This document shows, piece by piece, positions 9,698 to 27,829 of a DNA stretch of 64,000 bases. Position 1 is the stretch's first letter, and each line of letters begins with the position of its first letter. Where the stretch lies: NCBI RefSeq assembly GCF_947495255.1, contig NZ_CANLYI010000006.1, forward strand, positions 1 to 64,000, in the 5' to 3' direction. The DNA is from an uncultured Winogradskyella sp. (GTDB lineage: Bacteria > Bacteroidota > Bacteroidia > Flavobacteriales > Flavobacteriaceae). The notes under the pieces were generated by a model, which was given only the letters and a program-made list of their open reading frames with translations, did not search any database and was not told the DNA's origin. The translations under genes were made by a program, and so were the position numbers.

Positions 9698-9728
9698 AAG
9701 AGTGTGTTTTTAAATGCTCATTATGAGC

Positions 9729-10658: not shown

Positions 10659-10678
10659 TTGCGGATTTTTTTAGGGAC

Positions 10679-11293: not shown

Positions 11294-11304
11294 ATTGAGT
11301 TGGA

Positions 11305-12147
11305 TTAGCTGGTAAATAATCTTAGCGTAAATGATGTGGCTCGCTTATAGAGTTTAAATTTCAAGAAAACTATAAAGCCAACGGTGCCTAGTTGTACAAC
11401 GGGTGCAAAAAAGCCTTGACCAAAATCGGTCCCAAATAGGTTGGTCCAGAAATTGGTGTTTAATTCCGTATAGATTGCATTGATAAATACATTGACTAAG
11501 AAGAAAGCGGGAACTAACATATAGACGGCTGCATAGAGTTTAAAAAAGGTATAGGCTAGTGAACGGAACTTTTCAAATACGGCTAGACTTATAACCAAAG
11601 GAAAAAAGGCTTGCATAATTCCTAATAGAAAGAAGCGTTCTGCTAAAAACAGAGGGTAGATAAATAGGTCAAGAATCCACAGCATGGTGCTTATTATAAA
11701 GGCTAATATCTTAAATCCATAGAGTGGTGTAAGCAAAGCTTCATAAAGAAGCGTCATTGCCATACTTGCAGCATCTAATAATCCTACATCTTCTTCAAGT
11801 GGTAAATCTTGTAGTTGTAATGGTAATAACGCAGGTGCAGTCCCTCTGTATTGCCCTTCAATGGCTACTAATATGCCATCAAAAAAAACTAATACCTGCG
11901 TTGAGAAAATAACCAAGAGCACGACAGCAAAATTCTTTGCGAGCTCACCAGGACTTAATCCCCAAGAGTACCCATCTTTATCTGCAACACCTTCATTGTA
12001 TTTTTTTAGAATATTGATTAAGAAAAACAAAACCGCTAGCGTTTTCATTCCTGCAATGGTGTATTGCGAGAAGCTGCTGTTTTGTATGGTTTGAAATACC
12101 GTATCGATATATTCAAGTCCAATTCCTAAAATGAAGGCTGCAGTCAT
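11305..12147 (-). CDS. traJ: Conjugative transposon protein TraJ (VirB6-like)
   Basis: A 280-residue polytopic inner-membrane protein. At least six hydrophobic segments are visible, for example ILAFIISTMLWILDLFIYPL and FFLLGIMQAFFPLVISLAVF. An acidic loop (LPLEEDVGLLDAAS) lies between the second and third. TraJ is the likely VirB6 counterpart in the Bacteroidetes channel. It starts 2 bp downstream of the traI stop codon, consistent with coupled translation. Confidence 0.85.
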   Translation of the reverse strand: MTAAFILGIGLEYIDTVFQTIQNSSFSQYTIAGMKTLAVLFFLINILKKYNEGVADKDGYSWGLSPGELAKNFAVVLLVIFSTQVLVFFDGILVAIEGQYRGTAPALLPLQLQDLPLEEDVGLLDAASMAMTLLYEALLTPLYGFKILAFIISTMLWILDLFIYPLFLAERFFLLGIMQAFFPLVISLAVFEKFRSLAYTFFKLYAAVYMLVPAFFLVNVFINAIYTELNTNFWTNLFGTDFGQGFFAPVVQLGTVGFIVFLKFKLYKRATSFTLRLFTS

Positions 12148-12149
12148 TA

Positions 12150-12776
12150 TTAATAGTTTGTTTCGCGATTATTTACTTTATCCTGCATTTTTCTGAAGGA
12201 AATAATATCCTTGTAACGTCGCGTTTTTGTTTTGATATTGGAAACCATTTCCTTCGATTCTAATTCTTTTTCTTTTAGGACTTCGGCACGTTCGGCATCG
12301 GTCATTTTAAGATTATCGCTGGATAAAATTTCGCCCATAAATTCAACGGTGTCTAAAGCATTTTGAACTATCGCATCAAAGGATTCTGCAACTCGAGTTA
12401 CTTCATCAGGTTTTATATATGGCGAGTTCAAAATGTCTTGTAAATCAGTTTGCATAACCTGAATAAGACGTTGGTTGTTTTGTGCAATTTCCTCAACCGC
12501 TCGGAGTTGTTGTACCACGCTGGATACTTTTTCTAGCGCTTCTTTAGCGTCTTTCAAAAATTGTACAGACTTAATCATCTGCGCAGTTTGTTTGCCCGAT
12601 TCTACAAGTTGTTTTACCAAACTTATAAAATTGGTGTTGTCATAAGTCGGCATGCCTTGGCTTGTTGCCTTTAATGGAATTAATAGCATTAATGCTACTG
12701 CTAGTACTAAAATTCTGATTTTCTTTTTACTCATTGTAAAAAATTTGTTCTGGTATTCGTGAATCTTGGATTTCAT
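12150..12776 (-). CDS. traI: Conjugative transposon protein TraI (DUF4141)
   Basis: A 208-residue exported coiled-coil protein with a VirB5-like position in the operon. ATG 12776 lies 4 bp after the traG stop. The internal ATG 12734 gives a better signal peptide (MSKKKIRILVLAVALMLLIP) and may be the true start. Residues 50-200 are mostly helical, with repeated Glu/Gln/Lys patterns (SVVQQLRAVEEIAQNNQRLI). It ends 2 bp before traJ. Confidence 0.82.
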   Translation of the reverse strand: MKSKIHEYQNKFFTMSKKKIRILVLAVALMLLIPLKATSQGMPTYDNTNFISLVKQLVESGKQTAQMIKSVQFLKDAKEALEKVSSVVQQLRAVEEIAQNNQRLIQVMQTDLQDILNSPYIKPDEVTRVAESFDAIVQNALDTVEFMGEILSSDNLKMTDAERAEVLKEKELESKEMVSNIKTKTRRYKDIISFRKMQDKVNNRETNY

Positions 12777-12780
12777 AATA

Positions 12781-15183
12781 TTACGTTTTAGATGTGAATT
12801 GAATTATTGCTTTTTGCATATCGTGATGCTCTTCGTAGAGCTTCATGATATCCTCATTTTCTCGTCCATCGGTTAGATATGCTGCATACACTTCTTTAGG
12901 GACCTCAAGCCTGAAAATGTTGCTTTCCTTTCCGATTTTGATGAACATTTCAGTGTACTTCCGTGAACCAGAAAGATTATTTTTAATGGATTTTAATTGG
13001 TTTAAGTCATGGCTTGATAGGTTGAGTCTTTTTACAAGTTCCTCATAACCTTTTTCATTATTCAGACTATAGATAACTTGGGTGTTTTCCAAAATACTTG
13101 CTGAGGTTGCATTGTCGGGAAGTTGATTAATGGATTGTAGTATGATCCCAATAGCTCCATTTTGTTTTCGTATCGCTTGATAGTAAAATTCAACACTTTC
13201 TAGTACGTTGTCAAACTTCAGTTGTTTCGCAAACTCATCGAATAAAATGATGCCTTTTTCGGCTCTGTTTTTCCATATAGTTCTTTGGATCGCTGATTTA
13301 ATTAACTTCAACATTACCGACAAAATTTCTTTATTGTCTTTCACTTCATCCAGTTCAAAAACAATTAAGCGTTTGTCTTCGATTTTATACGTCTGGTCTT
13401 CACTTACTTCAAATAGAAAACTATATAGACCATCGCCAACGTACTCAGACATAACGTGCAAAAAGCTGGTCACATTAAAGTAGTCGGGATGGATTTTTAA
13501 GCGACTCAGAAGGTCTTTCTGGTGCTTTTCTATATAATTATAGAAACCTTCGAGCGAATGTTGTTTAGAAGTATGACGATAATAATGACGCAATATTTTC
13601 TTAACCGAAACCGATTGTGCTTTGGTGACTTTTATATCTGAAGCAAACAGTTCAAATAGAAATACGGATAAATCCTCTAAGCGTTCTGGAGTCAGATCTT
13701 TGACATCGCTGATATAAAAAGGATTGATCCCTAAGTTTTGTCCGCTCTCATAACGCAATACGGTATACTTTTCAGGATAGAGTTTGGCAAATTTGGTATA
13801 AGAACCCCCCAAATCAATGATGACTAATCGTACACCACTTTCAAAATATTGCCGTAAGATGTTATTAGCTAAAAACGATTTGCCTTCACCTGTGGGAGCG
13901 AAAATGGCGAAATTCCGAGCTTTGATGCGCTTCTTTTTTTCATCCCAAACATCTTTTAATACTGGAATGTTATGCTCTCTATCATTAAAAATAATGCCGG
14001 TTTTATCGGATTTGTAATTGGTGTTATTAATGAACAGACAAAGCGCGTGTTTCAAATCGGTAACGTACAAATCGTTGTTTGAGAAATTGGATGAAAAACA
14101 ACAGTAACTGTTCAGGATATAATTTTTGCGTTCTTCACCTCTTGGATAATAAGGAATAATATCCAATTCCTTAAATTCAGTCTTAATTTGTGAGGTGATC
14201 TTATCTAAAGTTTTAGCGTCTTTTGACCAATAGATAATATTGAGATGACCACGAATGATTCGTGAATTATCATCGGCATTAATTTGATCTAGAATGTGTT
14301 GAATTTTTCCTAGAACGACTTTGTTTTGTGAACCAAAATTGGAACTCTTATTAAGTTCCTCGATTTTCTTATCCAATAGCTTACGCCACTTTTGCTTGTC
14401 GTCCAGATAAAGAATCTGGTTAACAATGTGATTCTCGTTAAGTGTAAGCCCTATACCATCAATAAATCCTTGATGAAATACAAAATCGTCCGAAGTAAAT
14501 TTTTCATTGGTTTTGCTACTTTGTACATGTTCTCCAAAGCATAATTCACTGTTGACGGCAAGCGCATCAAAATGGTTTTCGCCTATGGTGACGTTTTTCT
14601 TTTCCAATAAAATGTCCGTGTCAAATCCTTCGTTGAAACCATTGAAATATTGTCGTGTTAATTGCTGAATATCTTCTGGTGGTAGTGGACGAAATTCCAT
14701 TTTACGACTGTTGTTGATAAAGGAAACGGAATCGTTTACGGCGTTGGCGAAGCTTTTAATATTTTCATCTAGTTCTTGTGCAATCACTTTTGAAATTGTC
14801 TTGAAAGGATTGACATATTTAGGATGGTTTAGAGCCTTGTTCTTGGTTAAGATGAAGAACAAATAACAGTGGTGTTTTATATGCTCACGACCTTTAAAAT
14901 GTGCGTTTGTGGCTTTTTCGAGAAAGGTGGTGTTTGGAAGCGGTTCTGAGTGATATGTTTTTTTAAGATAAATGTCTTGTTTATGGACCACGGTGCCAAT
15001 AGGTAAGGATTTGAACGCCTGAAACCATGCACTATGTATATCTTCAAAATCCTTTTCAGATAAGGAATAGATTTCTGGCAGATGCCCCTCATAGCAAAAC
15101 ACTACATTACCATTGTTGGCAAATACCATATGGTCTTTAATAGCGACAATGGGTTGATATTTTGAAAGGTTAATCGTGTTCAT
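12781..15183 (-). CDS. traG: Conjugation ATPase TraG (VirB4-like)
   Basis: An 800-residue VirB4-type ATPase that powers channel assembly. An N-terminal domain of about 400 residues precedes the P-loop, whose Walker A APTGEGKS sits near residue 430. The Walker B-like segment GIILFDEFAKQL follows near 650, then GAIGIILQSINQL. The length matches TraG of CTnDOT-like elements. Its start overlaps the traF stop by 14 bp, and traI follows 4 bp downstream. Confidence 0.92.
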   Translation of the reverse strand: MNTINLSKYQPIVAIKDHMVFANNGNVVFCYEGHLPEIYSLSEKDFEDIHSAWFQAFKSLPIGTVVHKQDIYLKKTYHSEPLPNTTFLEKATNAHFKGREHIKHHCYLFFILTKNKALNHPKYVNPFKTISKVIAQELDENIKSFANAVNDSVSFINNSRKMEFRPLPPEDIQQLTRQYFNGFNEGFDTDILLEKKNVTIGENHFDALAVNSELCFGEHVQSSKTNEKFTSDDFVFHQGFIDGIGLTLNENHIVNQILYLDDKQKWRKLLDKKIEELNKSSNFGSQNKVVLGKIQHILDQINADDNSRIIRGHLNIIYWSKDAKTLDKITSQIKTEFKELDIIPYYPRGEERKNYILNSYCCFSSNFSNNDLYVTDLKHALCLFINNTNYKSDKTGIIFNDREHNIPVLKDVWDEKKKRIKARNFAIFAPTGEGKSFLANNILRQYFESGVRLVIIDLGGSYTKFAKLYPEKYTVLRYESGQNLGINPFYISDVKDLTPERLEDLSVFLFELFASDIKVTKAQSVSVKKILRHYYRHTSKQHSLEGFYNYIEKHQKDLLSRLKIHPDYFNVTSFLHVMSEYVGDGLYSFLFEVSEDQTYKIEDKRLIVFELDEVKDNKEILSVMLKLIKSAIQRTIWKNRAEKGIILFDEFAKQLKFDNVLESVEFYYQAIRKQNGAIGIILQSINQLPDNATSASILENTQVIYSLNNEKGYEELVKRLNLSSHDLNQLKSIKNNLSGSRKYTEMFIKIGKESNIFRLEVPKEVYAAYLTDGRENEDIMKLYEEHHDMQKAIIQFTSKT

Positions 15184-15454
15184 AATTTAAAACAATAATT
15201 CTTTTGTTACTTATAAGTTTTGGAAAGGCTTTTGTCATCTGGAAAAGCTGTGGATGGTTTGTGATCCGTGTTAAAGCCACATATAAGCTGGCATTAAAAA
15301 ACATCAGACCAATTATAACCCCAAAGCTGAATGAGAAAATGATGATTAATAATGACGCAAGAATAGCCACCATCATTAAAGCAAATAGGGAAATGGGCAA
15401 TCCAAAAATGGCTGCCCGTTTTCTTATGTTCTTATAGACCTCAAACCGTTTCAT
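15170..15454 (-). CDS. traF: Conjugative transposon protein TraF (DUF4133)
   Basis: A 94-residue membrane protein, VirB3-like in size and position. It has a basic N-terminus (MKRFEVYKNIRKRA) and two adjacent hydrophobic helices (about 18-60). It overlaps traE by 1 bp and traG by 14 bp. VirB3-type proteins anchor the VirB4 ATPase, and here TraF precedes TraG directly. Confidence 0.87.
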   Translation of the reverse strand: MKRFEVYKNIRKRAAIFGLPISLFALMMVAILASLLIIIFSFSFGVIIGLMFFNASLYVALTRITNHPQLFQMTKAFPKLISNKRIIVLNYEHD

Positions 15455-15741
15455 TAGACAACGATGCTTATGAGGTAAGTAAAGATGCCTACCACTGCAC
15501 CTGCAATCAAGACAAATACGAGAACTCGGGTAATGCCTTTTTTAAGATCTGCGTTTTCTCCAAAAAAATGACCAGCGTTAAAGAGGAATCCAATTAAAAA
15601 AATGACGCCCAAAATGATGGGGAATATGGCTCTTATGGTATCTGAAACATCATTAACGGAGTCTTCAATACCACCGATCTGAGCAAAGCTTGTGGCTGTT
15701 GCCAGTAAAAATGTGAATAGCGTAAACATTAATTTTTTCAT
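15454..15741 (-). CDS. traE: Conjugative transposon protein TraE (DUF4134, VirB2-like)
   Basis: A 95-residue candidate pilin. It has an N-terminal signal segment (about 1-20, ending ATSFAQ), then two hydrophobic helices (IFPIILGVIFLIGFLFNAGH and VLVFVLIAGAVVGIFTYLI). This is the layout of VirB2-like TraE proteins. It is the first gene of the operon running from 15741 to 8864. The 182-bp gap before the divergent amidase gene should hold the tra promoter, but no clear consensus is visible there. Confidence 0.87.
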   Translation of the reverse strand: MKKLMFTLFTFLLATATSFAQIGGIEDSVNDVSDTIRAIFPIILGVIFLIGFLFNAGHFFGENADLKKGITRVLVFVLIAGAVVGIFTYLISIVV

Positions 15742-15923
15742 AAGTGCTAGATTTAGCCATTTATCGATGGAATCGAAATGGCAGGTTTTGATTAATACGT
15801 TATGAAATCTAGTGCGAAATGAATCTGACGGAAGAAAATCTCTAAATTTTAACGCTTAGGGGTGTTAAACTTTTGAAGATTGTTAAGGAAGTGGTTGATT
15901 TCTTGAATATTGTGTAATCTAAA

Positions 15924-16583
15924 ATGATTATGATGTATACGTTAAATCAAATGCTACTTGCGTTATTATGTTTGTTTTTTATTAATATTTCTTTTACACA
16001 GAATGAGAAAGATCAAGAAAAGAAACCCATTGTTGTAATAGATCCAGGACACGGAGGCAAAGATCCTGGGGCTATAACCACACAAGGTATAAAGGAAAAA
16101 GATATCGTTTTAGCAATCGTTTCTAAAATGGTAGTTCTCAATGATACTTTATTTGATGATCCGTTGAGGTTATTTTTCACTAGATATACAGACACCTTAA
16201 TAGCCCTTCGTGATAGAACTCTTTTGGCAAAAACATTGAAAGCGGATATTTTTATTTCAATCCATTGCAATCAAGCTATAAATACAACCGCAGCAGGAAC
16301 AGAAGTTTTTATTTATCCTAAAAGTGAAGCGCAGGCATCAGCATCTACTTATTTAGGGCTTACTATACAAAAAGGATTAGTTGATATCCTAGGTATTAGA
16401 AATCGAGGATTGAAATATGGAAACTTTCAGGTATTACGAGATAATGATAGTAATGCGTCAATACTATTAGAGTTAGGATTTTTATCTAAATCCGACGAGG
16501 CTATTTATTTGAGTAATGAAGAATCTCAAAGCGCTATTGCTTTGGTTATACTTCAATCGATTATTAAATTTTTGGGGTTATGA
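15924..16583 (+). CDS. N-acetylmuramoyl-L-alanine amidase (Amidase_3)
   Basis: A 219-residue zinc amidase that cleaves the peptide from MurNAc. A signal peptide (about 1-25, ending FTQ) is followed by VVIDPGHGGKDPGA (zinc His), the zinc Glu in GIKEKDIVLAI, ISIHCNQAIN (second zinc His), and ILLELGFLSKSDEA (catalytic Glu). It is divergent from traE. Because it lies with the tra genes, it may open peptidoglycan for the channel, a role given to lysozyme-like proteins in other elements. That role is inferred. Confidence 0.9.
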   Translation: MIMMYTLNQMLLALLCLFFINISFTQNEKDQEKKPIVVIDPGHGGKDPGAITTQGIKEKDIVLAIVSKMVVLNDTLFDDPLRLFFTRYTDTLIALRDRTLLAKTLKADIFISIHCNQAINTTAAGTEVFIYPKSEAQASASTYLGLTIQKGLVDILGIRNRGLKYGNFQVLRDNDSNASILLELGFLSKSDEAIYLSNEESQSAIALVILQSIIKFLGL

Positions 16584-16703
16584 GTGAGTTGTATTTAAGA
16601 GTACTAAAGAGTTTGAAGGAATTATTAGTTACGTTTTTAACTTCCATAAAACACTTATTAAATAATCATAAAACGGACATATAAATAATCCCATCAACTT
16701 ATT

Positions 16704-17369
16704 CTAAGAAACATTTTCTATTTTGCTTTCTGAAATTTTATTGAAAGTAATTAAATCACTTTCAAGTTGTTGCTTACCGTAAAGGCGTAATTTATTTACC
16801 AGAGGTCTACAACACTTTTTATATTTAGGGTTGCCACATATTGGACAATCTTTATTGGCTTCAAATTTATCACCCTTAATTGCTTTGTTAATCAAATTGA
16901 TTATATATAAAGGGTCTTTAAGTCCTAACTTTGTTCTGTAATATTGTATAATTCCAGCTTCATGATGATCATATTCACCATTTGCGTAATGACCTTTGGA
17001 TATTCTATATTGATGATTAGCGAAAAACGGATAGATAACATCTCTATAAAACTCGATTAAATTTATACCAGTGTTTCGTTTAAGAATAAGGTCATGAGTT
17101 ATATCTAAACAGCATGCGCCTTTTTTAGAAATATGAAAATCCCAATCTCGTTCAATAACGTCACTCATCTCATATACTGAAGGGATGGTGTGAGGATAGG
17201 ATGTATTTATTGTTATGAGCACTTTATAGTTTTTCCAATGTTGCTTTTTCTCGTCTACAACAGATATCTCTCCATAAAGTGCTTCACAATTATGTTTGTC
17301 AAGAGTTACATTATCAAATTTATGATAGACCTCTAAAAATTTTGCTATATCTCTTTTTAATAGCGACAT
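16704..17369 (-). CDS. E2-like (ubiquitin-conjugating fold) protein with SEC-C zinc knuckle
   Basis: A 221-residue protein. Residues about 5-120 fit a prokaryotic E2 pattern: WKNYKVLITINTSYPHTIPSV, then DWDFHISKKGACCLDI. Cys86/Cys87 are at the position of the catalytic Cys of E2 enzymes, with His79 before it. The C-terminus has a SEC-C-like zinc motif CPIC (175-178) and KKCC (184-187). It is the last gene of the cyclase operon, starting 3 bp after pycC. E2 proteins modify the cyclase in type II CBASS; here a similar role towards PycC is inferred. No E1 or deubiquitinase gene is nearby. Confidence 0.7.
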   Translation of the reverse strand: MSLLKRDIAKFLEVYHKFDNVTLDKHNCEALYGEISVVDEKKQHWKNYKVLITINTSYPHTIPSVYEMSDVIERDWDFHISKKGACCLDITHDLILKRNTGINLIEFYRDVIYPFFANHQYRISKGHYANGEYDHHEAGIIQYYRTKLGLKDPLYIINLINKAIKGDKFEANKDCPICGNPKYKKCCRPLVNKLRLYGKQQLESDLITFNKISESKIENVS

Positions 17370-17372
17370 TCT

Positions 17373-18353
17373 CTAATAATTAAAATATGGTTTACTGATT
17401 GAAGCAATTGGTACAAGATTAATAGGGTCAAGTTTTACTTTTGGACTGCCAATTGTTAGAATAACATTACCATTTTGATCTTGGACAGCGAAATCATTTT
17501 CTGTGATGTACTTTTCCCAATCAAAGTCATAATGATTGTAAAATCTACCATCTTCGTAATCCCAGATGGGTTTTGACTTTTGTTTGAAATATTTGTCATT
17601 AGACAATTGATTAAGGATGTGTTGACCAACAACGATTCCATTACTTAATGCAGTGGCTTGCATTTTAGGTGCTAAACTAGTGTGAAGACTAGAAGTAGTA
17701 ACCTCTCCAGCCTCTCCTAATCCAGAATACATCCAAAGCACTTGGTTATCATGACCTAGATCTAGACCAGCTCTGGTAAAAATATCTTTGATCCCATTGG
17801 CTTCGAAATACTCTTTAAGGTCATTTTTCACGAAATAAGTAATCAATGCAAATGCTTTTAAAGCATCTTTGGTTGCTTGTATTTTCTCGATATTTTTTCC
17901 TCCAAAATAAACCATCAAGCCATCTCCTTGAATTCTATGTACATAGCCACCACATAAATTAACAGCAAATATTGATGCTTTGACAATGCCTTCAGTTATA
18001 AGCGCAACGGTTTGCAAGGTAAATCGATTATTCAATTGAGTACTTTTTCGAACATCAACAAAACCACTAATTATCCAATGCTTTTCGGTATTAGTAGTTC
18101 CACGTAAGTATGAGAAATCTGGGTGATTTCCAAGACTGGGTAAATTATTGATTGCAGGTGTTCCGAGTCCCTTAATCAATCTTGTAGATTCATTTAAGCT
18201 TTCAAGTCCAGGAAGTTCTGCTCGTAAACCTTTTATGTAACTTAAGTCATAATCTGAATCTTCTTGATGCAGACTAAAAAGTTTATTCATTCGTTTTGGG
18301 TCTTTGTCGACCGCTTTTTTGATTACGTCCAAATAAGGATTAAAAATGTTCAT
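17373..18353 (-). CDS. Pycsar-type class III nucleotide cyclase (PycC-like)
   Basis: A 326-residue protein with a class III cyclase domain at about 90-255. The first metal Asp is Asp100 in GFVDVRKST, and the second is Asp144 in HRIQGDGLMVYFG. RAGLDLG (194-200) and the helix EVTTSSLHTSLAPKMQA (217-233) are further family landmarks. Pycsar cyclases make cCMP or cUMP upon phage infection; which one cannot be read here. The adjacent DUF5706-type membrane protein is the strongest support for a Pycsar rather than a cAMP role. The spacing is 12 bp from the effector gene and 3 bp to the E2 gene. Confidence 0.87.
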   Translation of the reverse strand: MNIFNPYLDVIKKAVDKDPKRMNKLFSLHQEDSDYDLSYIKGLRAELPGLESLNESTRLIKGLGTPAINNLPSLGNHPDFSYLRGTTNTEKHWIISGFVDVRKSTQLNNRFTLQTVALITEGIVKASIFAVNLCGGYVHRIQGDGLMVYFGGKNIEKIQATKDALKAFALITYFVKNDLKEYFEANGIKDIFTRAGLDLGHDNQVLWMYSGLGEAGEVTTSSLHTSLAPKMQATALSNGIVVGQHILNQLSNDKYFKQKSKPIWDYEDGRFYNHYDFDWEKYITENDFAVQDQNGNVILTIGSPKVKLDPINLVPIASISKPYFNY

Positions 18354-18365
18354 GGTATAGGGTTT

Positions 18366-18851
18366 TTATGAATTAATTAATATGAAATATAATGTGGGTA
18401 AAAGAAGAATGAATTGCACAACCAATAGTACACCGGCGAATTTCAATCTTGAAAATTTTGTTGTTAAACCGTTAGAAAGTATGTAGACTTGGGACCTTAA
18501 ATCTTGCAGCTCATCTTTGTCACTATAGTTTTTTGATGTACTATTGAATTCAGACCGCTTCATTTTAGAAATAGCGCCGAAATAATATAAAGAATCTGGC
18601 TTTTTTGAGAAAAAAGGTATGCTTGCTATTGAAAGTACAATTAAACTGAAAACACCAATAAATAGCAGAACACCAATGCTGACTTTACCAATTGTTGACA
18701 TGTCGCAAACAATTTCAGTTTGATTTAACAATGCAATAATACCACCAGTAATAAAAGTGTTTATTGCAATATATACAGCCGACTTATTGTTGACACTATC
18801 AAAATAGTGGTCAAATCTATCTATTGTGTATTTTAGTCTATCTTTCTCCAT
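18366..18851 (-). CDS. Pycsar effector PycTM-like membrane protein (DUF5706)
   Basis: A 161-residue protein with an N-terminal helix (about 1-20), two central membrane helices (about 24-42 and 52-75), a soluble loop with RSEFNSTSKNYSDKDEL, and a C-terminal membrane helix (about 137-158). This matches the Pycsar effector domain family (DUF5706). In known systems it binds the cyclic pyrimidine and disrupts the inner membrane, killing the infected cell. Its start overlaps the upstream LRAT gene by 14 bp, and pycC follows 12 bp after its stop. Confidence 0.85.
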   Translation of the reverse strand: MEKDRLKYTIDRFDHYFDSVNNKSAVYIAINTFITGGIIALLNQTEIVCDMSTIGKVSIGVLLFIGVFSLIVLSIASIPFFSKKPDSLYYFGAISKMKRSEFNSTSKNYSDKDELQDLRSQVYILSNGLTTKFSRLKFAGVLLVVQFILLLPTLYFILINS

Positions 18852-19263
18852 CGTTACTTGCTATTATTTGTATTGTAACCAAACCAGCAGCTATCCAAAG
18901 ACCATTCTTAACTTGGTTGCTGGATTCTTTACCATATTGAACCCAATTAGCAAAATGCTCGCAATTAAAGCCCAGAAAACTATATTTATGTCCGAGTTTT
19001 TGTCTAGCTCTTATTATGGCATGTTGTACTTGAAAATGATTGCCATTAAAGCGTCTTATTTTTACAGGTTCATATTCTTGTAGCAATTCAAGTAATTCTG
19101 AATGAAAGACTTGTTTTACACTGCCTTTCAAGTTTCCTATGAAGACTCCATTTCCGAGGTGTACTATGTAATGGTCTAGTATGCGACCTAAACCACTTTT
19201 CTTTTTGGCTACAATAACATCTATTGGTTGCAAGCCATTAATTAACTGCAAATAATTTGTCAT
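18838..19263 (-). CDS. LRAT-fold protein with C-terminal membrane helix
   Basis: A 141-residue protein of the LRAT branch of the NlpC/P60 superfamily. The catalytic His is His31 in DHYIVHLGNGVFIG, and the nucleophile is Cys101 in the hallmark NCEHFANWV. A hydrophobic C-terminal helix (about 121-135) would anchor it in the membrane, as in eukaryotic LRAT/PLAAT enzymes that act on phospholipids. It is translationally coupled to the PycTM gene (14-bp overlap), so it is part of the defence operon. Possible roles are lipid acyl transfer or phospholipase activity acting with the membrane effector, or peptide cleavage. Confidence 0.78.
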   Translation of the reverse strand: MTNYLQLINGLQPIDVIVAKKKSGLGRILDHYIVHLGNGVFIGNLKGSVKQVFHSELLELLQEYEPVKIRRFNGNHFQVQHAIIRARQKLGHKYSFLGFNCEHFANWVQYGKESSNQVKNGLWIAAGLVTIQIIASNDGER

Positions 19264-19271
19264 AACTAATT

Positions 19272-19397
19272 CTATTTTCCTTTACTATCTTTTCTATTGC
19301 TTCTAATATGCTCCTTAATAGTTATTGTTTTACCATTAACCTTTCTCTTGTGTTCTGGTATCCTATTGAATTTTTTACCTGTTGAATCTTTTGCCAT
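19272..19397 (-). CDS. 41-residue basic protein heading the Pycsar-like operon
   Basis: A short ATG frame of 41 codons, MAKDSTGKKFNRIPEHKRKV at its start, ending 8 bp before the LRAT gene. About one third of the residues are Lys or Arg, with a conserved-looking NGKTITIKEHIRSN segment. The position at the head of a tight operon and the sensible start and stop support coding. Function unknown: a nucleic-acid-binding small protein or a modification target are possible. The final residues SKGK do not give a di-Gly tail, so a classical ubiquitin-like protein is unlikely. Confidence 0.55.
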   Translation of the reverse strand: MAKDSTGKKFNRIPEHKRKVNGKTITIKEHIRSNRKDSKGK

Positions 19398-19507
19398 AAT
19401 TTTTGTTTTTAAGTTTATAAGGATTTTTTATTATATTTGAATCTCCCTATTAATTATTTGCTAGTATTTTATTGTTTTAACCAAAGGCTATATGTGCCCA
19501 GCTACTC

Positions 19508-19541
19508 ATATACCCTAATAGATATATCCGTTTTGGTATAT
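19508..19541. promoter_or_regulatory. Inverted repeat upstream of the sigma-like gene
   Basis: ATATACC (19508-19514) and GGTATAT (19535-19541) are an exact 7-bp inverted repeat with a 20-bp spacer. The right arm ends 2 bp before the ATG at 19544. It lies in the 146-bp gap between the divergent Pycsar-like operon and the sigma/ImmA trio, so one regulator could act on both. Confidence 0.35.
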
Positions 19542-19543
19542 AA

Positions 19544-20227
19544 ATGAATACAGATCTGAATCAAGACATAGATTTTGAAAAAATACCTAGTATAGAATTG
19601 CTTGAGTATATTTCTTTCAAAGATGAATTTCCTGCAGAAGCACAGAGTGCCTTTGTGGAATTTTGCTTCAGGTTTGAGAAAGAATTAAAGCGTAAATCAG
19701 AAATCTATTGTAATAAGTATGGATACAGTGAAGTTGTTGCTTTGGAAATAGCACATTGCACTTTTTCAAGAGTTTGGAAATATGGAAGTTTCAATAAAGA
19801 AAAAGCTAAATCCAATGATATGGATAAAGCCATACTATTATGGATGTATCCTATCGTATTTACCCAAATCATAAAGTATGGAAAAGAAAATACTTGTGCA
19901 GAACCGACAGAGGAAGAAGACTTAAGTTTAATTAATAATGCAGAAGAATTGGCTGAAAAATTGGATATCATCAATGTTGAAGCCAAAAGAGAAGTTGTTG
20001 CTAAATTAAAGACAATTGAAAGGGCTTTAACTCAATTGACAGTTAAACACCGTATTATTTATTTTACATATAGAGGATACAAAAAACAAGGAAAGAAAGT
20101 ACCTCGAACAATTACTGCTCTGTTAAGAGAAAAGCTCTCATTAACTCAGAAATCTGTAAATACTTATTATGGAGATGCTGAAAGACACATTACAACCTAT
20201 TTAAATATTATCAATGGCAAAGCTTAA
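19544..20227 (+). CDS. Sigma-factor-like protein
   Basis: A 227-residue protein with an ECF-sigma-like outline. The N-terminal helical part (about 30-110) resembles sigma region 2, including YSEVVALEIAHCTFSRVW. After an acidic linker (EPTEEEDLSL), a C-terminal helix-turn-helix resembles region 4 (LTQLTVKHRIIYFTYRG ... LTQKSVNTYYGDAERHI). It opens a three-gene operon ending in an ImmA/IrrE protease; its end overlaps the next gene by 14 bp. It could be a transcription factor controlled by proteolysis. Assignment is by pattern only. Confidence 0.6.
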   Translation: MNTDLNQDIDFEKIPSIELLEYISFKDEFPAEAQSAFVEFCFRFEKELKRKSEIYCNKYGYSEVVALEIAHCTFSRVWKYGSFNKEKAKSNDMDKAILLWMYPIVFTQIIKYGKENTCAEPTEEEDLSLINNAEELAEKLDIINVEAKREVVAKLKTIERALTQLTVKHRIIYFTYRGYKKQGKKVPRTITALLREKLSLTQKSVNTYYGDAERHITTYLNIINGKA

Positions 20228-20552
20228 AAAAATAGAGCTTATTGAAATTGAACAATTAGATACTTGGCTGAGTTCAACTGGTTTTCTGTTCCCAAGTAGT
20301 GAACTTGAATTAGATAGATTTAATAAGCTTTATGAAGACTATAATTATAAATTAGATAATTTTCATTTAGATCCAATCTCAATTATCAATAATACATTCC
20401 ATAGAGAACCAAAGGTTATTACTATGTTCGAAAGTGACGTTGATAAAGAAATAGAAGGTTTGAGAATGGTTGCTAGAAAAGGTAATCAGAATCTGCCTCA
20501 GCATATTATAGAAAAAATGCGTAAAAAACATAATCAAGATCCAAGTGATTAA
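20214..20552 (+). CDS. Small hypothetical protein between sigma-like and ImmA genes
   Basis: A 112-residue soluble, charged protein with no recognised domain. It starts inside the end of the sigma-like gene (14-bp overlap) and ends inside the start of the protease gene (8-bp overlap). Such tight coupling suggests stoichiometric production. A role as inhibitor, adaptor or substrate of the protease would fit other ImmA operons but is not shown by the sequence. Confidence 0.65.
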   Translation: MAKLKKIELIEIEQLDTWLSSTGFLFPSSELELDRFNKLYEDYNYKLDNFHLDPISIINNTFHREPKVITMFESDVDKEIEGLRMVARKGNQNLPQHIIEKMRKKHNQDPSD

Positions 20553-21339
20553 TAAAAGCAAAAGCCTTAGCATAAAAAATCTAGCTGAAGTAATTGCTTT
20601 AGAATATAAGGATAAGATAACTCCGCTTGATAAGATTATTGAAGATGAAGGTTTAAAAGTATTCTATGATAGTTATGGAAAAGATACTTTTGATGGGATG
20701 ACTCTATATGAAAATGGAAAATTTTCTATTCATATAAATACTGATTTAGGGAACTTGCATAATTCCGCCCGAGGCCGATTTACATTGGGACACGAGCTTG
20801 GGCATTACTACATTGATTCGCACAGAATAGGTTTGAAAAAAGGATTATTGAAGCCGCATCCCTCTAGAACTAATCGAAAACAATTTAATCAAATTGAACA
20901 CGAAGCAGATTTTTTTGCATCTTGCTTATTAATGCCTGAAGAAAGATTTAATAAGGATTTTCAAAAGAAACCATTTAATATTGGATTAATTGATTTTTTG
21001 AAAGAAGAATATAAAGTTAGCCGAACAGCTTGCGCCTTCAGGTTTGCTGATATAGGGAATCATTCAATAATGATAATCTACGGAGAGGCAGGTAAGATTA
21101 AATGGTATAATTGTAGCGAAGGGTTCCTTTATAAATACCTTCTCTATGAAAAGACTGTAGCTCCCAATACAGTAATGGGAGAATTCTATAAAGATATCAA
21201 AGATGATATCTTTAAAACAGAAGAGATTTGGGCTGTAGATATTTTTAAGTATGTAAAGGATGATGACATAAATAAAAAATTTCTTGAGCATTGTATTACA
21301 TATAAGAATAAGGCTCTTAGTATTATTTGGGGGGATTAA
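20545..21339 (+). CDS. ImmA/IrrE-family metallopeptidase
   Basis: A 264-residue protein with a GTG start overlapping the previous gene. The zinc motif is HELGH in RFTLGHELGHYYIDSH (about 80-95), and the third ligand is in EHEADFFASCLLMP (about 115-130), both typical of ImmA/IrrE. Family members cleave XRE-type repressors to switch on ICE or prophage genes, or damage responses. The C-terminal 100 residues form a separate domain without known motif. It could release the sigma-like protein or another regulator on this element. Confidence 0.83.
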   Translation: MINKSKSLSIKNLAEVIALEYKDKITPLDKIIEDEGLKVFYDSYGKDTFDGMTLYENGKFSIHINTDLGNLHNSARGRFTLGHELGHYYIDSHRIGLKKGLLKPHPSRTNRKQFNQIEHEADFFASCLLMPEERFNKDFQKKPFNIGLIDFLKEEYKVSRTACAFRFADIGNHSIMIIYGEAGKIKWYNCSEGFLYKYLLYEKTVAPNTVMGEFYKDIKDDIFKTEEIWAVDIFKYVKDDDINKKFLEHCITYKNKALSIIWGD

Positions 21340-22454
21340 ACCTTAATCTTCCCCCAAACCAAAGGATGCGCACTAGCAGCCACATTTTTATTAGAAACAG
21401 ATTTGTAGATAGACCATTGTGGTTGTTTTTCTGGCCACATCGCTTTACGATTTAAACCACACGAAGTTATCTTACCAAATAGAGAAGGGGAGAAGAGCAT
21501 ATAATCGTTTTGCTTAATATTTACACCCATACGATAAGCACCAAGTCTAAAATAATTAGCATCATTCCCTTTATCAGAATCCACGTGAAAAGAGTGATGT
21601 TTAGTAATGTCTTTTAAGTCTGTGTCTTGGATTATTGGAGATAAAGAATTGCAATAAGGAGGAGCATTAAATGTGCCTGCAATGATGATATTGGTTTTAC
21701 CTTCTGCTTTAAGCTGATTATAAATCGCTGCAATTCGGGTAACTTGATTTTTTCTAATGGTGTCAGAATAGGTTTTATCTTGTTTGTCTTTTATGAGGTA
21801 GACATTGAGCAGCCAAATTGTTTTTTTGGAAGGTGTGGTAATTTCATATACGATGAGGTTTTTACCATCGTCGTTTAGGGTGGTGTTGATGTTGTGCGTT
21901 CTCACAGACTCAAGATGATACCCTTCTCTAAGCGCAATACCCATTTCTAAACTATTCATATCATTGCCTTGTATGACAAATGATTGTGGATACGGTTGAC
22001 ATCCATATTTTGGAAGGATAAGCTGATTGAATTCTTCAAAAGAGGCTCTGTCTTCAATTTCTTGTAATAACAAAATATCAGGATTTACATTAGCAATAAC
22101 CCGTGCTTTGTGATCTGTTGCCTTCGATTGGATGGGAATAGTTTGAAGTTCCACCCAACCATTCCAATTGGTAATATCATTTGCTTTATTTTCTAAAGAA
22201 TGACTTAAGCCTTTCATATAGAGAAATCCTGCTTTTCTTCGTAAAATAGCATAAGGGCGAGGGCTTGGTTTTTCAAAACCAATGAGAAATGATAACTCTT
22301 TAATGCGGTCTTGTTGGTTCAAAGATTTAGAAGAATGAAGCATTAAAGCATCAAGTTCATGTACCCAATCGTTGATATTCTTTCCATAAGGTTTTTCTAG
22401 AAGACTTTTGTCTCTGTGAAATAAATTCTGAATGTTAAAGGTGGCGATTTTCAT
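21336..22454 (-). CDS. Endonuclease/exonuclease/phosphatase-fold protein with altered active site
   Basis: A 372-residue EEP (DNase I-like) protein. It keeps the N-terminal MKIATFNIQNLF and the Glu motif LLLQEIEDR. The usual GDFN motif, however, reads AGTFNAPP, and the usual C-terminal SDHxP reads SAHPLV. Two catalytic Asp positions therefore appear replaced. It may have lost hydrolysis, use a different mechanism, or act on a different substrate. It overlaps the convergent ImmA gene by 4 bp and is followed upstream by the ATPase/replication genes, with an 11-bp gap. Confidence 0.78.
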   Translation of the reverse strand: MKIATFNIQNLFHRDKSLLEKPYGKNINDWVHELDALMLHSSKSLNQQDRIKELSFLIGFEKPSPRPYAILRRKAGFLYMKGLSHSLENKANDITNWNGWVELQTIPIQSKATDHKARVIANVNPDILLLQEIEDRASFEEFNQLILPKYGCQPYPQSFVIQGNDMNSLEMGIALREGYHLESVRTHNINTTLNDDGKNLIVYEITTPSKKTIWLLNVYLIKDKQDKTYSDTIRKNQVTRIAAIYNQLKAEGKTNIIIAGTFNAPPYCNSLSPIIQDTDLKDITKHHSFHVDSDKGNDANYFRLGAYRMGVNIKQNDYMLFSPSLFGKITSCGLNRKAMWPEKQPQWSIYKSVSNKNVAASAHPLVWGKIKV

Positions 22455-22465
22455 AATACGTGTTT

Positions 22466-23122
22466 TTATTTGCGTTTATCATTGGTGTTTTCATCAAAGG
22501 GAATAAGGTTGAATAGCTCGCGCATACGACTTCGGACGCGATGACCATATAAATCTTCCAATTCTTGAGCATTTAGATTTGTGGTGGCATGTGTTTTTAT
22601 CTTGTGGTCTATAAAAAGCTCATGACGCGAGATCAGAATTTCGCCCATAACATTACAGTCTTTTCCATAATGTCGTCCCATAGGTTCAACACCTAAATCA
22701 TCGAAGCAAAAGAATTGTCTACAGCCATAATCTTCAATAGTTTTATAACCAATATGATTAAACCCAAATACAATATTTCTACAAGGAATTAAAATATATG
22801 GTTTTTGTAGAGGGACGATATGTTTTAGCAATAACATTAAGCTTGTTTTACCGCAGCCCACAGGGCCGGAAAGTAGAATGCCTTTGTTGATGTCAATATC
22901 ATTTTTAGCGCAATTGTCTTCATCTTTTATAACGTAATGACAGAGTTTTAAAATAATGTCGTGGTCTGCTTCATAGATTTTAAAACGGTTACCGAATAGC
23001 AATTTTCCTTTAATATCGAGGTAAATTAATATTTTTTCAAAGTCATAAATCACTTCTTTGCCATTTAAGGATCCAATAGAATATTCTATGTTTTGTTCAA
23101 TGAGTTTACAAGGGTTGACCAT
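22466..23122 (-). CDS. DnaC/IstB-like AAA+ ATPase
   Basis: A 218-residue ATPase. Walker A GPVGCGKT lies at 86-93, a Walker B-like FFCFDDLGVEP at about 137-147, and an arginine-rich sensor/finger region near GHRVRSRMRELF. The layout resembles helicase loaders of the DnaC/IstB group. It overlaps the upstream DnaD-like gene by 17 bp, so the two probably act together in replicating the excised or transferred element. Confidence 0.82.
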   Translation of the reverse strand: MVNPCKLIEQNIEYSIGSLNGKEVIYDFEKILIYLDIKGKLLFGNRFKIYEADHDIILKLCHYVIKDEDNCAKNDIDINKGILLSGPVGCGKTSLMLLLKHIVPLQKPYILIPCRNIVFGFNHIGYKTIEDYGCRQFFCFDDLGVEPMGRHYGKDCNVMGEILISRHELFIDHKIKTHATTNLNAQELEDLYGHRVRSRMRELFNLIPFDENTNDKRK

Positions 23123-23753
23123 AATTTTTTTGTTTTGAGGTTCTCAAGTTGTCCTTTTTATGAAACACTGCATTTTTAGTTTCAAGTTCCTTTGCTTTAA
23201 GCATCCAATTACTGGCGCTGGCTTGCCAATCTTCAATTTTTATTTTACCACCAATTTTCCAACCAATCGCTTGATAGTGATTGTAAAATTTTGAAGCTTC
23301 AATCGATGGCCATTTTTTACTTTTAAAAAAAACAAAAACTTCAAATTCATTTTTTGGTAGCTTAGTTTTATTTATGTTTTCTTTTTGTTTAGTAATGTTT
23401 GTATTAGGTACTAATGCTTGTTCAGTGCTTGTTTCATGCTTGTTTAGAACTTGTTTAGAGCTTGTATCAAAAATGAGCATCCTAATTTTGCTCCCTTTAT
23501 AGGGGTTATGAGATGGCAAATAATGTATGTAGTCCCAACTGTTTAATTGCTTAAGGCAACGATGATAGGTTGCTTTTGATCCAATTTTAGATTGTAACAT
23601 AATTTCTTGTCTATCCATATAAAATTCTTTTGGAAACCGGTTAACGTTCCAACATTGAAATAGTGCCATATATAAACTGACATGTGTTGGATTTAATCGC
23701 TTATCTAAATAGAATATTTGAAATATTGAATTGAGATGTTTTATATAGTTCAT
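23106..23753 (-). CDS. Replication-initiator-like winged-helix protein
   Basis: A 215-residue protein. The N-terminal 100 residues look like a winged helix of the type seen in plasmid replication and DnaD-like proteins (LNPTHVSLYMALFQCWNV, then GSKATYHRCLKQLNSWDYI). A low-complexity linker precedes a C-terminal helical segment with PSIEASKFYNHYQAIGWK and WQASASNWML. This is a known arrangement on Bacteroidetes elements. The downstream gene is a helicase-loader-like ATPase, supporting a replication role. Confidence 0.72.
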   Translation of the reverse strand: MNYIKHLNSIFQIFYLDKRLNPTHVSLYMALFQCWNVNRFPKEFYMDRQEIMLQSKIGSKATYHRCLKQLNSWDYIHYLPSHNPYKGSKIRMLIFDTSSKQVLNKHETSTEQALVPNTNITKQKENINKTKLPKNEFEVFVFFKSKKWPSIEASKFYNHYQAIGWKIGGKIKIEDWQASASNWMLKAKELETKNAVFHKKDNLRTSKQKNYGQPL

Positions 23754-23761
23754 AAAGCGTT

Positions 23762-24040
23762 TTAAATGGTATTGTCCACGCGGTTCTTATCCATTACCTT
23801 TTGAATTTCTGCGGCGTCATAGTATATAATACCTCCAACCTTCGTAAAAGGAAGGGTGCCATTTACTCTGAGATTCTGTAATGTGCCTGGACTAATTTTG
23901 AGTAAATCCATGAGTTCTGAAGATTTTATATATTTCTTCAGTTGGCCTTGTGATTGTTTGCTGAGAATGTGTTTAATATCAGAGAGTAATTCTAATTTAA
24001 ATTCTCTGAGATCATCGGTCGTGATTATAGTTGCTGGCAT
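23762..24040 (-). CDS. Excisionase-like helix-turn-helix protein
   Basis: A 92-residue protein with a MerR/Xis-like HTH in its second half: LMDLLKISPGTLQNLRVNGT and PFTKVGGIIYYDAAEIQKVM. Such proteins act as excisionases or local regulators in CTnDOT-type elements. It is 8 bp upstream of the DnaD-like gene and is the first gene of the 24040-21336 unit. The preceding 324 bp (24041-24364) contains no gene; it would hold the promoter and has an 11-bp palindrome CCCAACTTGGG at 24342-24352. Confidence 0.8.
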   Translation of the reverse strand: MPATIITTDDLREFKLELLSDIKHILSKQSQGQLKKYIKSSELMDLLKISPGTLQNLRVNGTLPFTKVGGIIYYDAAEIQKVMDKNRVDNTI

Positions 24041-24341
24041 AATAAAAGGGTTTTAAAGAAAGAGACTAAAAAATGGTCTTAAAACATTTTGATAGTTTCT
24101 ATCTCGATTTAGCTCACGACCATTACTATTTGACTAAATTAATGTTCGTGAATCTGTTGATTTGACTTTCGTTATGCAAATTTGTGGGTGATTATTCTAT
24201 TGTCTTCAATAGTTTATCCAGAGATGGGAGTTTTTTTTAATATAAGTTTTGAATAGTTTTGGAGATGAGAAGGGCGAGTTCAATAAATTTATTGCCCTAT
24301 TTTGTATTAAAAATAATGGAGTTTTTAGGAGGTATGGTATT

Positions 24342-24352
24342 CCCAACTTGGG
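24342..24352. promoter_or_regulatory. Short palindrome downstream of rteC
   Basis: CCCAA, C, TTGGG: an odd-centred palindrome 12 bp past the rteC stop codon, in the regulatory gap before the excisionase-like gene. It could be part of a regulator site or a weak terminator; the evidence is positional only. Confidence 0.25.
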
Positions 24353-24364
24353 GAAAACTTAGGG

Positions 24365-25210
24365 TTATTCATCCAAATCCTTAAAGCGCTTTAGAAGTAC
24401 TTTTGTCAACCAATCTAAAAATTTTGTTTTACTGTTTTTTCTAGCTCTTATTTCTATAAAAGTGTGATAGTAATTGCCAAGTTCAATGTTAAATACCTGC
24501 TCAAACATAGAGGCTAATTCTTTAATGTCGGCAGTTCCGCTATTTATGGAGCCACTACTGTGGAGTGCATAAATTAATTCGGTTAACTCTGTTTTGCTTC
24601 CTGTCCAAAAAAGTTTTGAAGATGTTTGCTTCATCGTATTGGTTTTAGTGTCTTTATGCGACTGTAATTTTTCAATTTCTTGTTGCAGATAAACAATCAA
24701 CATATCATAAGCAATAATGGTAGCTACTGTGGTGTCTTGACATGTAGAAAACTGATCGTCAATAAAAAAATGGAAGAATTCAGTTGGTAATCGTAAATCA
24801 GATTTACCTCTAATAAAATATTCTTCATCTAGGGTCGTTGCACCTCTGCGATAATAATGATAGAACTCTAAGTTATCATTGAAAAAGACTTGTAATTTGT
24901 TGATGTGATTATTTAAATATTCTATTTGGTACTTTGAGCTACTTCGAGGACGTTTGCTTTCAATATTAAAGAGCCTAACATAATAAATAAGTCTGCTAAA
25001 TATTTGAGGTTTTATATGCTTAAAAAAACTAATTTCTTCATTTTTTGAACTAAACCCTTTTTTAAGGACTCTTTTTCGAAGTTTTTTAATGCATTTTTCA
25101 GTTTTAGTAATCCCATTTTCTGCTTTATATAGAATATCCTCAGTACGGGACTCTAAAGACTCCAGTGTTGTTTCAAATTCTGATATTAATTCTTGGTACC
25201 TCATAACCAT
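24365..25210 (-). CDS. rteC: RteC-like regulator of element excision
   Basis: A 281-residue protein of the RteC family, which in CTnDOT activates excision genes. It has the family pattern of YQELISEFETTLESLE near the N-terminus, a middle part with NDNLEFYHYYRRGATTLDE, and a C-terminal winged-helix-like TELIYALHSSGSINSGTADI followed by FIEIRARKN. The frame extends to a TTG at 25234, but ATG 25210 or 25204 is more likely. It lies 20 bp downstream of the AOS-GNAT gene, in the same direction, suggesting co-transcription. Confidence 0.85.
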   Translation of the reverse strand: MVMRYQELISEFETTLESLESRTEDILYKAENGITKTEKCIKKLRKRVLKKGFSSKNEEISFFKHIKPQIFSRLIYYVRLFNIESKRPRSSSKYQIEYLNNHINKLQVFFNDNLEFYHYYRRGATTLDEEYFIRGKSDLRLPTEFFHFFIDDQFSTCQDTTVATIIAYDMLIVYLQQEIEKLQSHKDTKTNTMKQTSSKLFWTGSKTELTELIYALHSSGSINSGTADIKELASMFEQVFNIELGNYYHTFIEIRARKNSKTKFLDWLTKVLLKRFKDLDE

Positions 25211-25230
25211 ACAAAACAAACTATTTGATT

Positions 25231-27633: not shown

Positions 27634-27829
27634 CTTCAATAATTTAGAATATTAAGTTAATATCTTTTGTTAGACAATGAGAAATCTTGATACTTCTAAA
27701 TCCTTTAGAGTCAATTCTTAATCCTTTGTAAGCAAATATTAATCCATATTGACTAATGCTAATTGAGAAATATGCAAATGTTATATTGATTATTTCGTAA
27801 TTTTATAATCAACCAGTTTTCTAATCATT

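Follow-up and report, generated by a model that had tools for sequence, protein, structure and literature searches.

To our knowledge, it remains an open question how the cyclases of Pycsar (pyrimidine cyclase system for antiphage resistance), reportedly defined by Tal et al. in 2021, are switched on. The question is raised in a concrete form by an operon in a 64,000-nucleotide stretch of DNA from an uncultured Winogradskyella sp. (contig NZ_CANLYI010000006.1, positions 1 to 64,000; hereafter referred to as the window). Positions 16704-19397 contain five leftward genes with one 14-bp overlap and remaining gaps of 3-12 bp, exactly as laid out in a first-pass annotation made from the letters alone: a small basic protein, an LRAT/PLAAT-like protein, a PycTM membrane effector, a class III cyclase (PycC) and an E2-like protein with a SEC-C motif (Table 1). 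The operon is of the clade-E (cytidylate-cyclase-type) Pycsar type, the E2-like gene included. We propose that it encodes an E2-regulated Pycsar system, in which the E2-like protein recognises the C-terminal tail of PycC and acts through its residue C87, a reading to which we assign a probability of about 0.6. Four things are shown by the analysis itself: the genes are constantly associated, the active-site residues are intact, the E2-like protein has an E2 fold, and E2 type corresponds to tail type in enzymes that are unrelated to one another.

A set of 19 PycC relatives was used as queries against genome contigs, yielding 79 loci; these, the window and one Chryseobacterium plasmid form a comparison set of 81 loci (cited below by L numbers), in which gene families were assigned by iterated profile searches. 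The PycTM family was present in 80 of the 81 loci, the exception (L081) beginning within the cyclase; in the window, the effector adjoins the cyclase and its Pfam match exceeds the cut-off. A SEC-C E2 was found in 75 loci. In the six others, a protein of 152-178 residues (cluster c26) occupies the same position, and its representative from L062 matched best to the E2 portion of PDLC00816, a profile in which cyclase and E2 are fused (2.7e-51), with further matches to an E2 profile (1.8e-43) and to the Serratia E2 of PDB entry 8hsb (1.3e-10). As the c26 proteins are E2-like, an E2-like gene follows the cyclase in 81/81 loci (SEC-C type in 75, the second, short type in six). The E2 of L078 is cut off by the contig end, and that of L015 (8935-9656) lies in two overlapping open reading frames (ORFs), reflecting a broken gene or an assembly error.

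Because the 81 loci had been picked by PycC similarity, a phylum sample of 395 genomes was also used, which gave eight PycC matches with E < 1e-40. The five best (E ≤ 2.1e-119) all had an E2-like neighbour, of the SEC-C type in four cases and of the c26 type in one. The remaining three (E 8.8e-71 to 1.4e-45) lie beside a PycTM gene and carry an AGS_C sensor domain at their end, and no E2 was found within 0.9-1.2 kb downstream of them. At least two phylum-sample genomes are also represented among the 81 loci, and the two sets of counts are therefore not independent. A PycC gene on a Citrobacter plasmid is long (1368 bp) and has no E2 annotated beside it; phages gave two partial PycC matches. 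None of the five operon genes had a match in NCBIfam. An ordinary two-gene Pycsar system with chance neighbours would agree with passages of PMC11224242 that describe Pycsar as cyclase plus receptor, but the E2-like gene in 81/81 loci and in 5/5 clade-E loci of the phylum sample renders this highly improbable, and for the E2 the chance-neighbour reading is already disfavoured. Chance adjacency, which would have undone the first-pass annotation, is thus contradicted by two near-constant partners, PycTM (80/81) and the E2-like protein (81/81).

From the type of E2, the C-terminal tail of the immediately upstream gene product can be predicted, irrespective of the fold of that product. The window PycC ends in SKPYFNY; CD-NTases linked to a SEC-C E2 end in PKPYGY (L088), NRPWGKAM (L086), DPKPWFKQ (L144) and AKPWKNI (L145), and a metallo-beta-lactamase (MBL) fold enzyme with the same link (the first MBL of L141, Runella) ends in NAKPWQRG. 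The idea of a shared tail came from L086-L091, in which it held for five of six; in nine later loci (L141-L145, L152, L162, L164 and L165), P[WY] was found in 9/9, with a preceding K or R in 7/9. Among the non-Pycsar partners of SEC-C E2s (14 CD-NTases and the MBL enzyme), P[WY] lay within the last 12 residues in 14/15, the exception being L090, versus 0/19 for CD-NTases with other partners (Fisher 1.1e-8). The PycCs linked to a SEC-C E2 had [KR]P[WYF] within their last 15 residues in 69 of 75 cases, and this motif was present in 1/830 other ORFs (≥100 residues, picked in the loci). Carnobacterium locus L163, with an IS30 transposase directly upstream, was left out of the tail count. An origin of the motif in a ribosome-binding site was considered and rejected, because the codons vary (22 distinct 9-mers in the 69 genes, and four Pro codons).

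The c26-linked PycCs had HRFHY in 6/6 cases and [KR]P[WYF] in 0/6, and L115, from the phylum sample, also had HRFHYGK at its end. CD-NTases linked to a c26 E2 ended in HRFYGE (L167, L168) or HHYFGS (L184), with looser forms in L170, L171, L182 and L183; a profile of five PycC tails recovered three of these seven (2.1e-9, 3.1e-9 and 1.3e-7) and nothing else below 0.7. A solved CD-NTase (PDB 7ljo), with the C-terminus GVKNVSHRNYG, resembles the tails of the c26-linked PycCs. The three E2-less PycCs that were tested have the AGS_C sensor domain instead. Over the first 270 residues, the SEC-C-linked CD-NTase of L169 is 52% identical to that of L172, which is linked to Cap2, and 40% identical to that of L174, which is linked to a SEC-C E2; L169 and L174 both have P[YW], although L174 shares 55% identity with L173, which is linked to Cap2. 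Judged from these sequences, it is the partner and not descent that the tail tracks among CD-NTases of a single family. The set of 28 loci behind these comparisons comprised four SEC-C loci already counted, seven with the second E2 type and 12 other controls, once five loci had been dropped, two because of a broken or fused gene (L175, L181) and three because no cyclase ORF was recognised (L186, L187, L191); a Cap2 (E1-E2) neighbour was confirmed by PADLOC for three of the 12 controls only (L166, L172 and L173).

Table 1. Positions of the operon, its functional residues and the divergent regulatory genes in the window.
Feature	Position	Strand	Evidence or remark
41-aa Lys/Arg-rich protein, first gene	19272..19397	-	recognised in 2/81 loci
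LRAT/PLAAT-like protein	18838..19263	-	Pfam LRAT 1.2e-6; H31 19171-19173, N44 19132-19134, C101 18961-18963
PycTM membrane effector	18366..18851	-	Pfam PycTM 7.8e-9; PADLOC 2TM 4.5e-59
PycC, clade-E cytidylate-cyclase type	17373..18353	-	PDLC00767 4.2e-138; D100 18054-18056, D144 17922-17924
PycC C-terminal tail KPYFNY, residues 321-326	17376..17393	-	[KR]P[WYF] motif
E2-like protein, SEC-C motif at C-terminus	16704..17369	-	
E2 C87, proposed catalytic cysteine	17109..17111	-	73/73
SEC-C zinc motif core C175..C186	16812..16847	-	both Cys 73/73
Sigma-70-like regulator	19544..20227	+	homologue in L002 annotated sigma-70 family
CapH-like protein	20214..20552	+	PADLOC capH 1.2e-12
CapP-like M78 (ImmA/IrrE) metallopeptidase	20545..21339	+	PADLOC capP 9.3e-58
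Imperfect inverted repeat TACC-N20-GGTA between regulator and operon	19511..19538	.	candidate operator or promoter

In the alignment of SEC-C E2s, H79 is as invariant as C87 (73/73), and the G-x-x-C-L context points to C87 as the putative catalytic residue. The SEC-C profile matches SecA SEC-C peptides at 4.8e-5. The model of the window protein has an E2 fold; structural matches were evaluated with VIA-align on Foldseek candidates, and the best were TSG101-type UEV domains, with the Serratia CdnG-E2 also among the matches. No E1 is encoded in the operon, and the single ThiF match of the genome lies on another contig. An E2 without an E1, encoded directly after the cyclase, is the layout of type II-short CBASS (cyclic-oligonucleotide-based antiphage signalling system). 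Matches to profile PDLC00833 occurred in 284/395 genomes; among the matches listed, all but ten places were partial, mostly covering the SEC-C part, and the ten near-full matches comprised four after a PycC and six after a CD-NTase (PADLOC Cyclase E, 2.7e-78 to 3.5e-121). Plasmid-borne SEC-C E2s had a CD-NTase partner in Haliscomenobacter, Cytobacillus, Vibrio, Aliarcobacter, Ligilactobacillus, Enterococcus and Roseivivax, and an MBL-fold hydrolase partner in one case, Runella. The Runella plasmid region (L141, 2899-8546) is annotated with three MBL-fold hydrolases, a SEC-C E2 and a serine protease, and is possibly a third kind of E2 client system. A quick tree of 68 Pycsar E2s and 15 others required two label changes. 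No relative was detected in the viral contigs scanned with the window and Vibrio E2s, and the phages searched with the Vibrio E2 gave no match. The PADLOC seeds probably included these families, since the E1-E2 and 2TM profiles match them so well. The E2-like protein can thus be retained as the system member it had been taken for: it follows the cyclase in all 81 loci, and its family also occurs in E1-less CBASS operons.

The pairing of a class III cyclase with a PycTM effector, the core of the first-pass annotation, was upheld. Both metal-binding aspartates of PycC, D100 and D144, are present in 79/79 sequences, as are F98 and R140, whereas Q142 is present in 70/79; the last three are clade-E residues for cytidine triphosphate (CTP), and in the window protein they align with the CTP-binding F100, R142 and Q144 of EaPycC (numbering of PMC11224242, section 6). 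The nearest solved relative of the window cyclase is EaPycC itself (PDB 8jsf), with the C-terminus GYKPYLR. Placement of the cyclase outside the Pycsar clade is therefore contradicted by both its residues and this relative. By analogy with purified EaPycC, which made cyclic cytidine monophosphate (cCMP) in vitro according to passages of PMC11224242, PycC would produce a cyclic pyrimidine, most likely cCMP. The same activity implies that catalysis itself can proceed without the E2, which should rather control the cyclase than enable it, or set its location. PycC was more conserved than the E2 in 13/13 compared pairs (96% versus 74% for the window and L003), with omega < 0.3 in every computable pair: the E2 is constrained yet fast-evolving.

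Comparison with known systems indicates where the operon differs. Clade E Pycsar, as represented by EaPycC (Hou et al. 2024), has the same cyclase family, metal aspartates, CTP-selecting residues and KPY tail, but an E2, an LRAT, a small gene and a regulator go unmentioned in the passages of PMC11224242 considered, in the main text of which the words "ubiquitin" and "operon" are absent. Type II-short CBASS, exemplified by Serratia marcescens CdnG-E2 (PDB 8hsb/8yjy/9kkb), also consists of a cyclase followed by one E1-less E2 of the same fold, and members of the SEC-C E2 family seen here also lie behind CD-NTases that end in this kind of tail; its cyclase is, however, a CD-NTase, and the Serratia E2 matches the second, SEC-C-less type. 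The window system may therefore work like type II-short CBASS, but it is no CBASS, because its cyclase is of class III. The abstract of Yan et al. 2024 reportedly describes C-terminal processing and poly-cGASylation in type II-short CBASS. In type II CBASS with Cap2, an E2-type enzyme likewise acts at the cyclase C-terminus, attaching the final residue, in typical cases an Ala or a Gly, to lysines (passages of PMC10097602 and PMC11153139), and the B. cereus operon described there has CapP/CapH genes upstream, with CapP/CapH-like genes found here too; Cap2, unlike the E2 of the window operon, has an E1 part, and its substrates have a C-terminal Ala or Gly.

The mechanism that we propose would run as follows. 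The divergent regulatory cascade (sigma-like, CapH-like and CapP-like proteins) would probably raise expression upon DNA damage, as suggested by CapH+CapP, and the cyclic pyrimidine made by PycC would activate PycTM and stop the infected cell, as known for Pycsar. The E1-less SEC-C E2 would recognise the short [KR]-P-[YW] tail of PycC, with the SEC-C motif as a guessed tail reader, and C87 would trim and/or conjugate this tail, so placing the activity or location of the cyclase under E2 control; LRAT would join PycTM as a partner in some loci only, its slot being variable. Because E2 type and tail type match, the likeliest target of the E2 is the tail of the cyclase, in parallel to type II-short CBASS; that this action is covalent we infer from the analogy. 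The earlier suggestion that the E2 primes the cyclase gains from the tail rule, a new piece of evidence for an action of the E2 on the cyclase, but priming is only one option, and tail processing, conjugation or a brake would fit equally well. A broader reading, for which we see an even chance, is that two E1-less E2 families each read their own C-terminal tag, fitted to unrelated immune enzymes, with an LRAT-type co-effector in this operon; under this reading, the tag would be carried by class III cyclases, CD-NTases and one MBL-fold hydrolase, and would replace the AGS_C domain of the E2-less PycCs tested.

Several observations weigh against E2 control through the tail. L090 breaks the rule among the CD-NTases, and L152 and L164 lack the basic residue; of the six exceptional PycCs, four have P[WY] without a basic residue, one (L075) has a different tail, and one (L070) is short and probably broken. 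Some of the tails were already known when the regular expressions were drawn up, and the rows are related by descent, so that 69/75 does not amount to 69 independent events. Only L167, L168 and L184 of the seven c26-linked CD-NTases clearly share the PycC tail, the others being looser (TKNYGG, FYGE, YGD). The Serratia E2 is nearer by sequence to the second, SEC-C-less E2 type, and no experiment on a SEC-C E2 was found in the literature. UEV domains, the best structural matches of the E2 model, are not conjugating enzymes. EaPycC, which itself bears a tail (GYKPYLR), makes cCMP in vitro (passages of PMC11224242), and the PycC tail lacks the C-terminal Ala or Gly of Cap2 substrates.

The resemblance to UEV domains, which are non-catalytic E2 relatives that bind P-rich peptides, together with the missing Gly or Ala, would be accounted for if the E2-like protein bound the PycC tail non-covalently, as a scaffold, a brake or an infection sensor, and its lower conservation than PycC in 13/13 pairs would suit an arms-race interaction surface. 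Nevertheless, C87 and H79 are invariant (73/73), whereas UEVs lack the cysteine, and the Serratia CdnG-E2 is also among the structural matches; we regard such binding as a minority possibility, unlikely but to be taken seriously. Alternatively, the PycC tail might be a donor that the E2 joins to a dedicated Lys-rich acceptor supplied by the operon, namely the product of the small first gene, PycTM or LRAT, so that the cyclase is held close to its effector. A small protein precedes the core in 56/81 loci and in 12/12 LRAT loci, that of the window has 14 K/R in 41 residues, and a B. cereus CBASS cyclase is joined to PspA (passages of PMC11153139), but 25/81 loci have none of the four small families (four of them on contigs too short for a verdict), and these families did not cluster together, making such an anchor distinctly improbable. 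We continue to favour recognition of the tail by the E2 and action through C87.

The LRAT assignment is supported by a Pfam score of 29.3 bits against a cut-off of 24.3 and by an AlphaFold2 model (pLDDT 80.6), the best matches of which are human AdPLA, H-REV107 and HRASLS3; AdPLA (PDB 4fa0; E 7e-4, probability 1.00, TM 0.49/0.65) was the only match below 0.001. The catalytic triad of PLAAT enzymes is His-His-Cys. In the 12 LRAT sequences, N100-C101-E102-H103, H31, N44 and C101 are invariant, and the expected second His, placed by eye, is the Asn N44; the "intact His/Cys" of the first-pass annotation is thus right for H31 and C101 (12/12) but not for the second His of the triad. Human PLAAT3 is similar in fold, in the conserved His and in the Cys of N-C-E-H, the differences being the invariant Asn, the bacterial origin and the 14-bp overlap with the PycTM gene. 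The C-terminal helix (residues 116-137) has a best KD19 value of 1.3, compared with ≥1.6 in 8/12 LRATs, and we are unsure of a membrane anchor because the window helix is less hydrophobic than in those eight. In L196 (1492-2010), the hydrophobic part at the C-terminus of an LRAT homologue is longer, and the 3.4 kb examined there contain no Pycsar gene.

Other gene counts over the 81 loci were LRAT 12, M78 peptidase (anywhere in the locus) 57, CapH-like 19 and sigma-like 21; two of the five best phylum-sample PycC loci also had an LRAT. The upstream half of the operon behaves as a cassette in which LRAT is optional, because L003, which has the nearest cyclase (96% identical over 326 residues), has another small gene instead of LRAT, and its DNA match to the window ends about 21 bp before PycTM. 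The slot before PycTM is filled in 34/81 loci, by LRAT (12), small hydrophobic c12 or c40 proteins (19) or HNH-like proteins with a hydrophobic end (3), never two of these families together. In 56/81 loci, and in 12/12 LRAT loci, the first slot is occupied by a member of one of four small families, which include DUF2188 and DUF1508. The small basic protein itself, relatives of which were sought within the 81 loci, was recognised in 2/81, although the slot that it fills is widespread. These patterns suggest swappable PycTM partners. In L060, L062 and L073, a 139-aa protein in the LRAT slot has weak HNH-like and glycine-zipper matches below the cut-off. ORFs of cluster c61 lie between the regulator and PycTM in L016/L012, a possible mobile-element insertion, and L012 has a short PycTM ORF of 90 aa.

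The "layered defence" previously drawn around LRAT is not borne out as a general design, given 12/81 loci and its absence beside the closest cyclase. That LRAT is a lipid-cutting co-effector of PycTM is a guess, which we hold to be more probably wrong than right. The gene, perhaps with the small one, could instead be carried as a passenger, or serve defence or a toxin-antitoxin pair independently of Pycsar with only the promoter in common, which would fit its rarity, its nine changes on the PycC tree (shuffled mean 11.3; a quick tree with long branches, on which clustering is slight), its absence from the nearest relative, the homologue without a Pycsar gene in L196, and the 456 proteins found by the LRAT profile as against 166 by a single PycC query (different query types). 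This is less likely than not, as LRAT lies upstream of PycTM in 12/12 loci, adjoining it in 11 (in L077, a c42 gene intervenes) and overlapping it in eight, dN/dS is 0.05 and 0.15 in the two computable pairs, the active-site residues are kept in 12/12, and the slot holds one of its families at a time in 34/81 loci.

The regulator genes at 19544-21339 lie outside the feature of the first-pass annotation. The sigma-like family occupies the divergent place in 19/81 loci; Pfam gave nothing significant for the window member, and neither a Pfam match nor, by Pfam, a helix-turn-helix (HTH) for the CapH-like protein. In the CapP-like peptidases, HExxH (H83, E84, H87) is conserved in 55/55 and E118 in 54/55. 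A TACC-N18..27-GGTA repeat was found in 7/19 sigma-type loci (mean 0.3 and maximum 3 in 200 shuffles) and in 0/20 c6-type loci. CapH+CapP systems share with the window an M78 peptidase with HExxH and a small CapH-like partner, both upstream and divergent, but the window has a sigma-like third gene and no HTH was found in its CapH-like protein. CapH+CapP are DNA-damage-responsive, and Pycsar has already been named among operons so regulated (passages of PMC13373217); by this analogy, we infer a sigma-factor version of the same regulation. The Roseivivax CBASS operon of L165 (1-1537), which has a SEC-C E2, is accompanied by a divergent ImmA/IrrE peptidase and two small genes, a layout resembling the regulator of the window operon. 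An Exo/endonuclease/phosphatase-like gene beside the regulators (21336-22454) is found in two of the other 80 loci (L003, L008). Conjugative-transposon genes of the Bacteroidota type (TraM, DUF4138, RteC) surround the operon at 8864-25234, and the defence genes have the appearance of mobile-element cargo; beside RteC lies an 802-aa ORF (25231-27639) with an Aminotran_1_2 part and a weak FemAB-like part.

In literature searches, we found no link of Pycsar with LRAT, SEC-C or E2-like proteins, although an earlier mention of an E2 in Tal et al. 2021 is possible, and nothing on CBASS with SEC-C; passages retrieved on Pycsar with ubiquitin and cyclase held no E2-Pycsar link. A constant E2 partner with a matching tail would provide a concrete switch for clade-E Pycsar, and one ubiquitin-like control module would tie two signalling defence systems together. 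Because EaPycC bears the tail, what was measured in vitro may be the activity of an enzyme free of its regulation. From the tail rule follow predictions as to which C-terminal residues matter and to which cyclase a given E2 belongs, and further proteins that end in such a tail, for example the Runella MBL enzyme, are predicted to be E2 clients. If the tail code is true, Pycsar would have E2-gated and sensor-gated forms, like CBASS, and the tails with their matching E2 could be swapped as portable switches.

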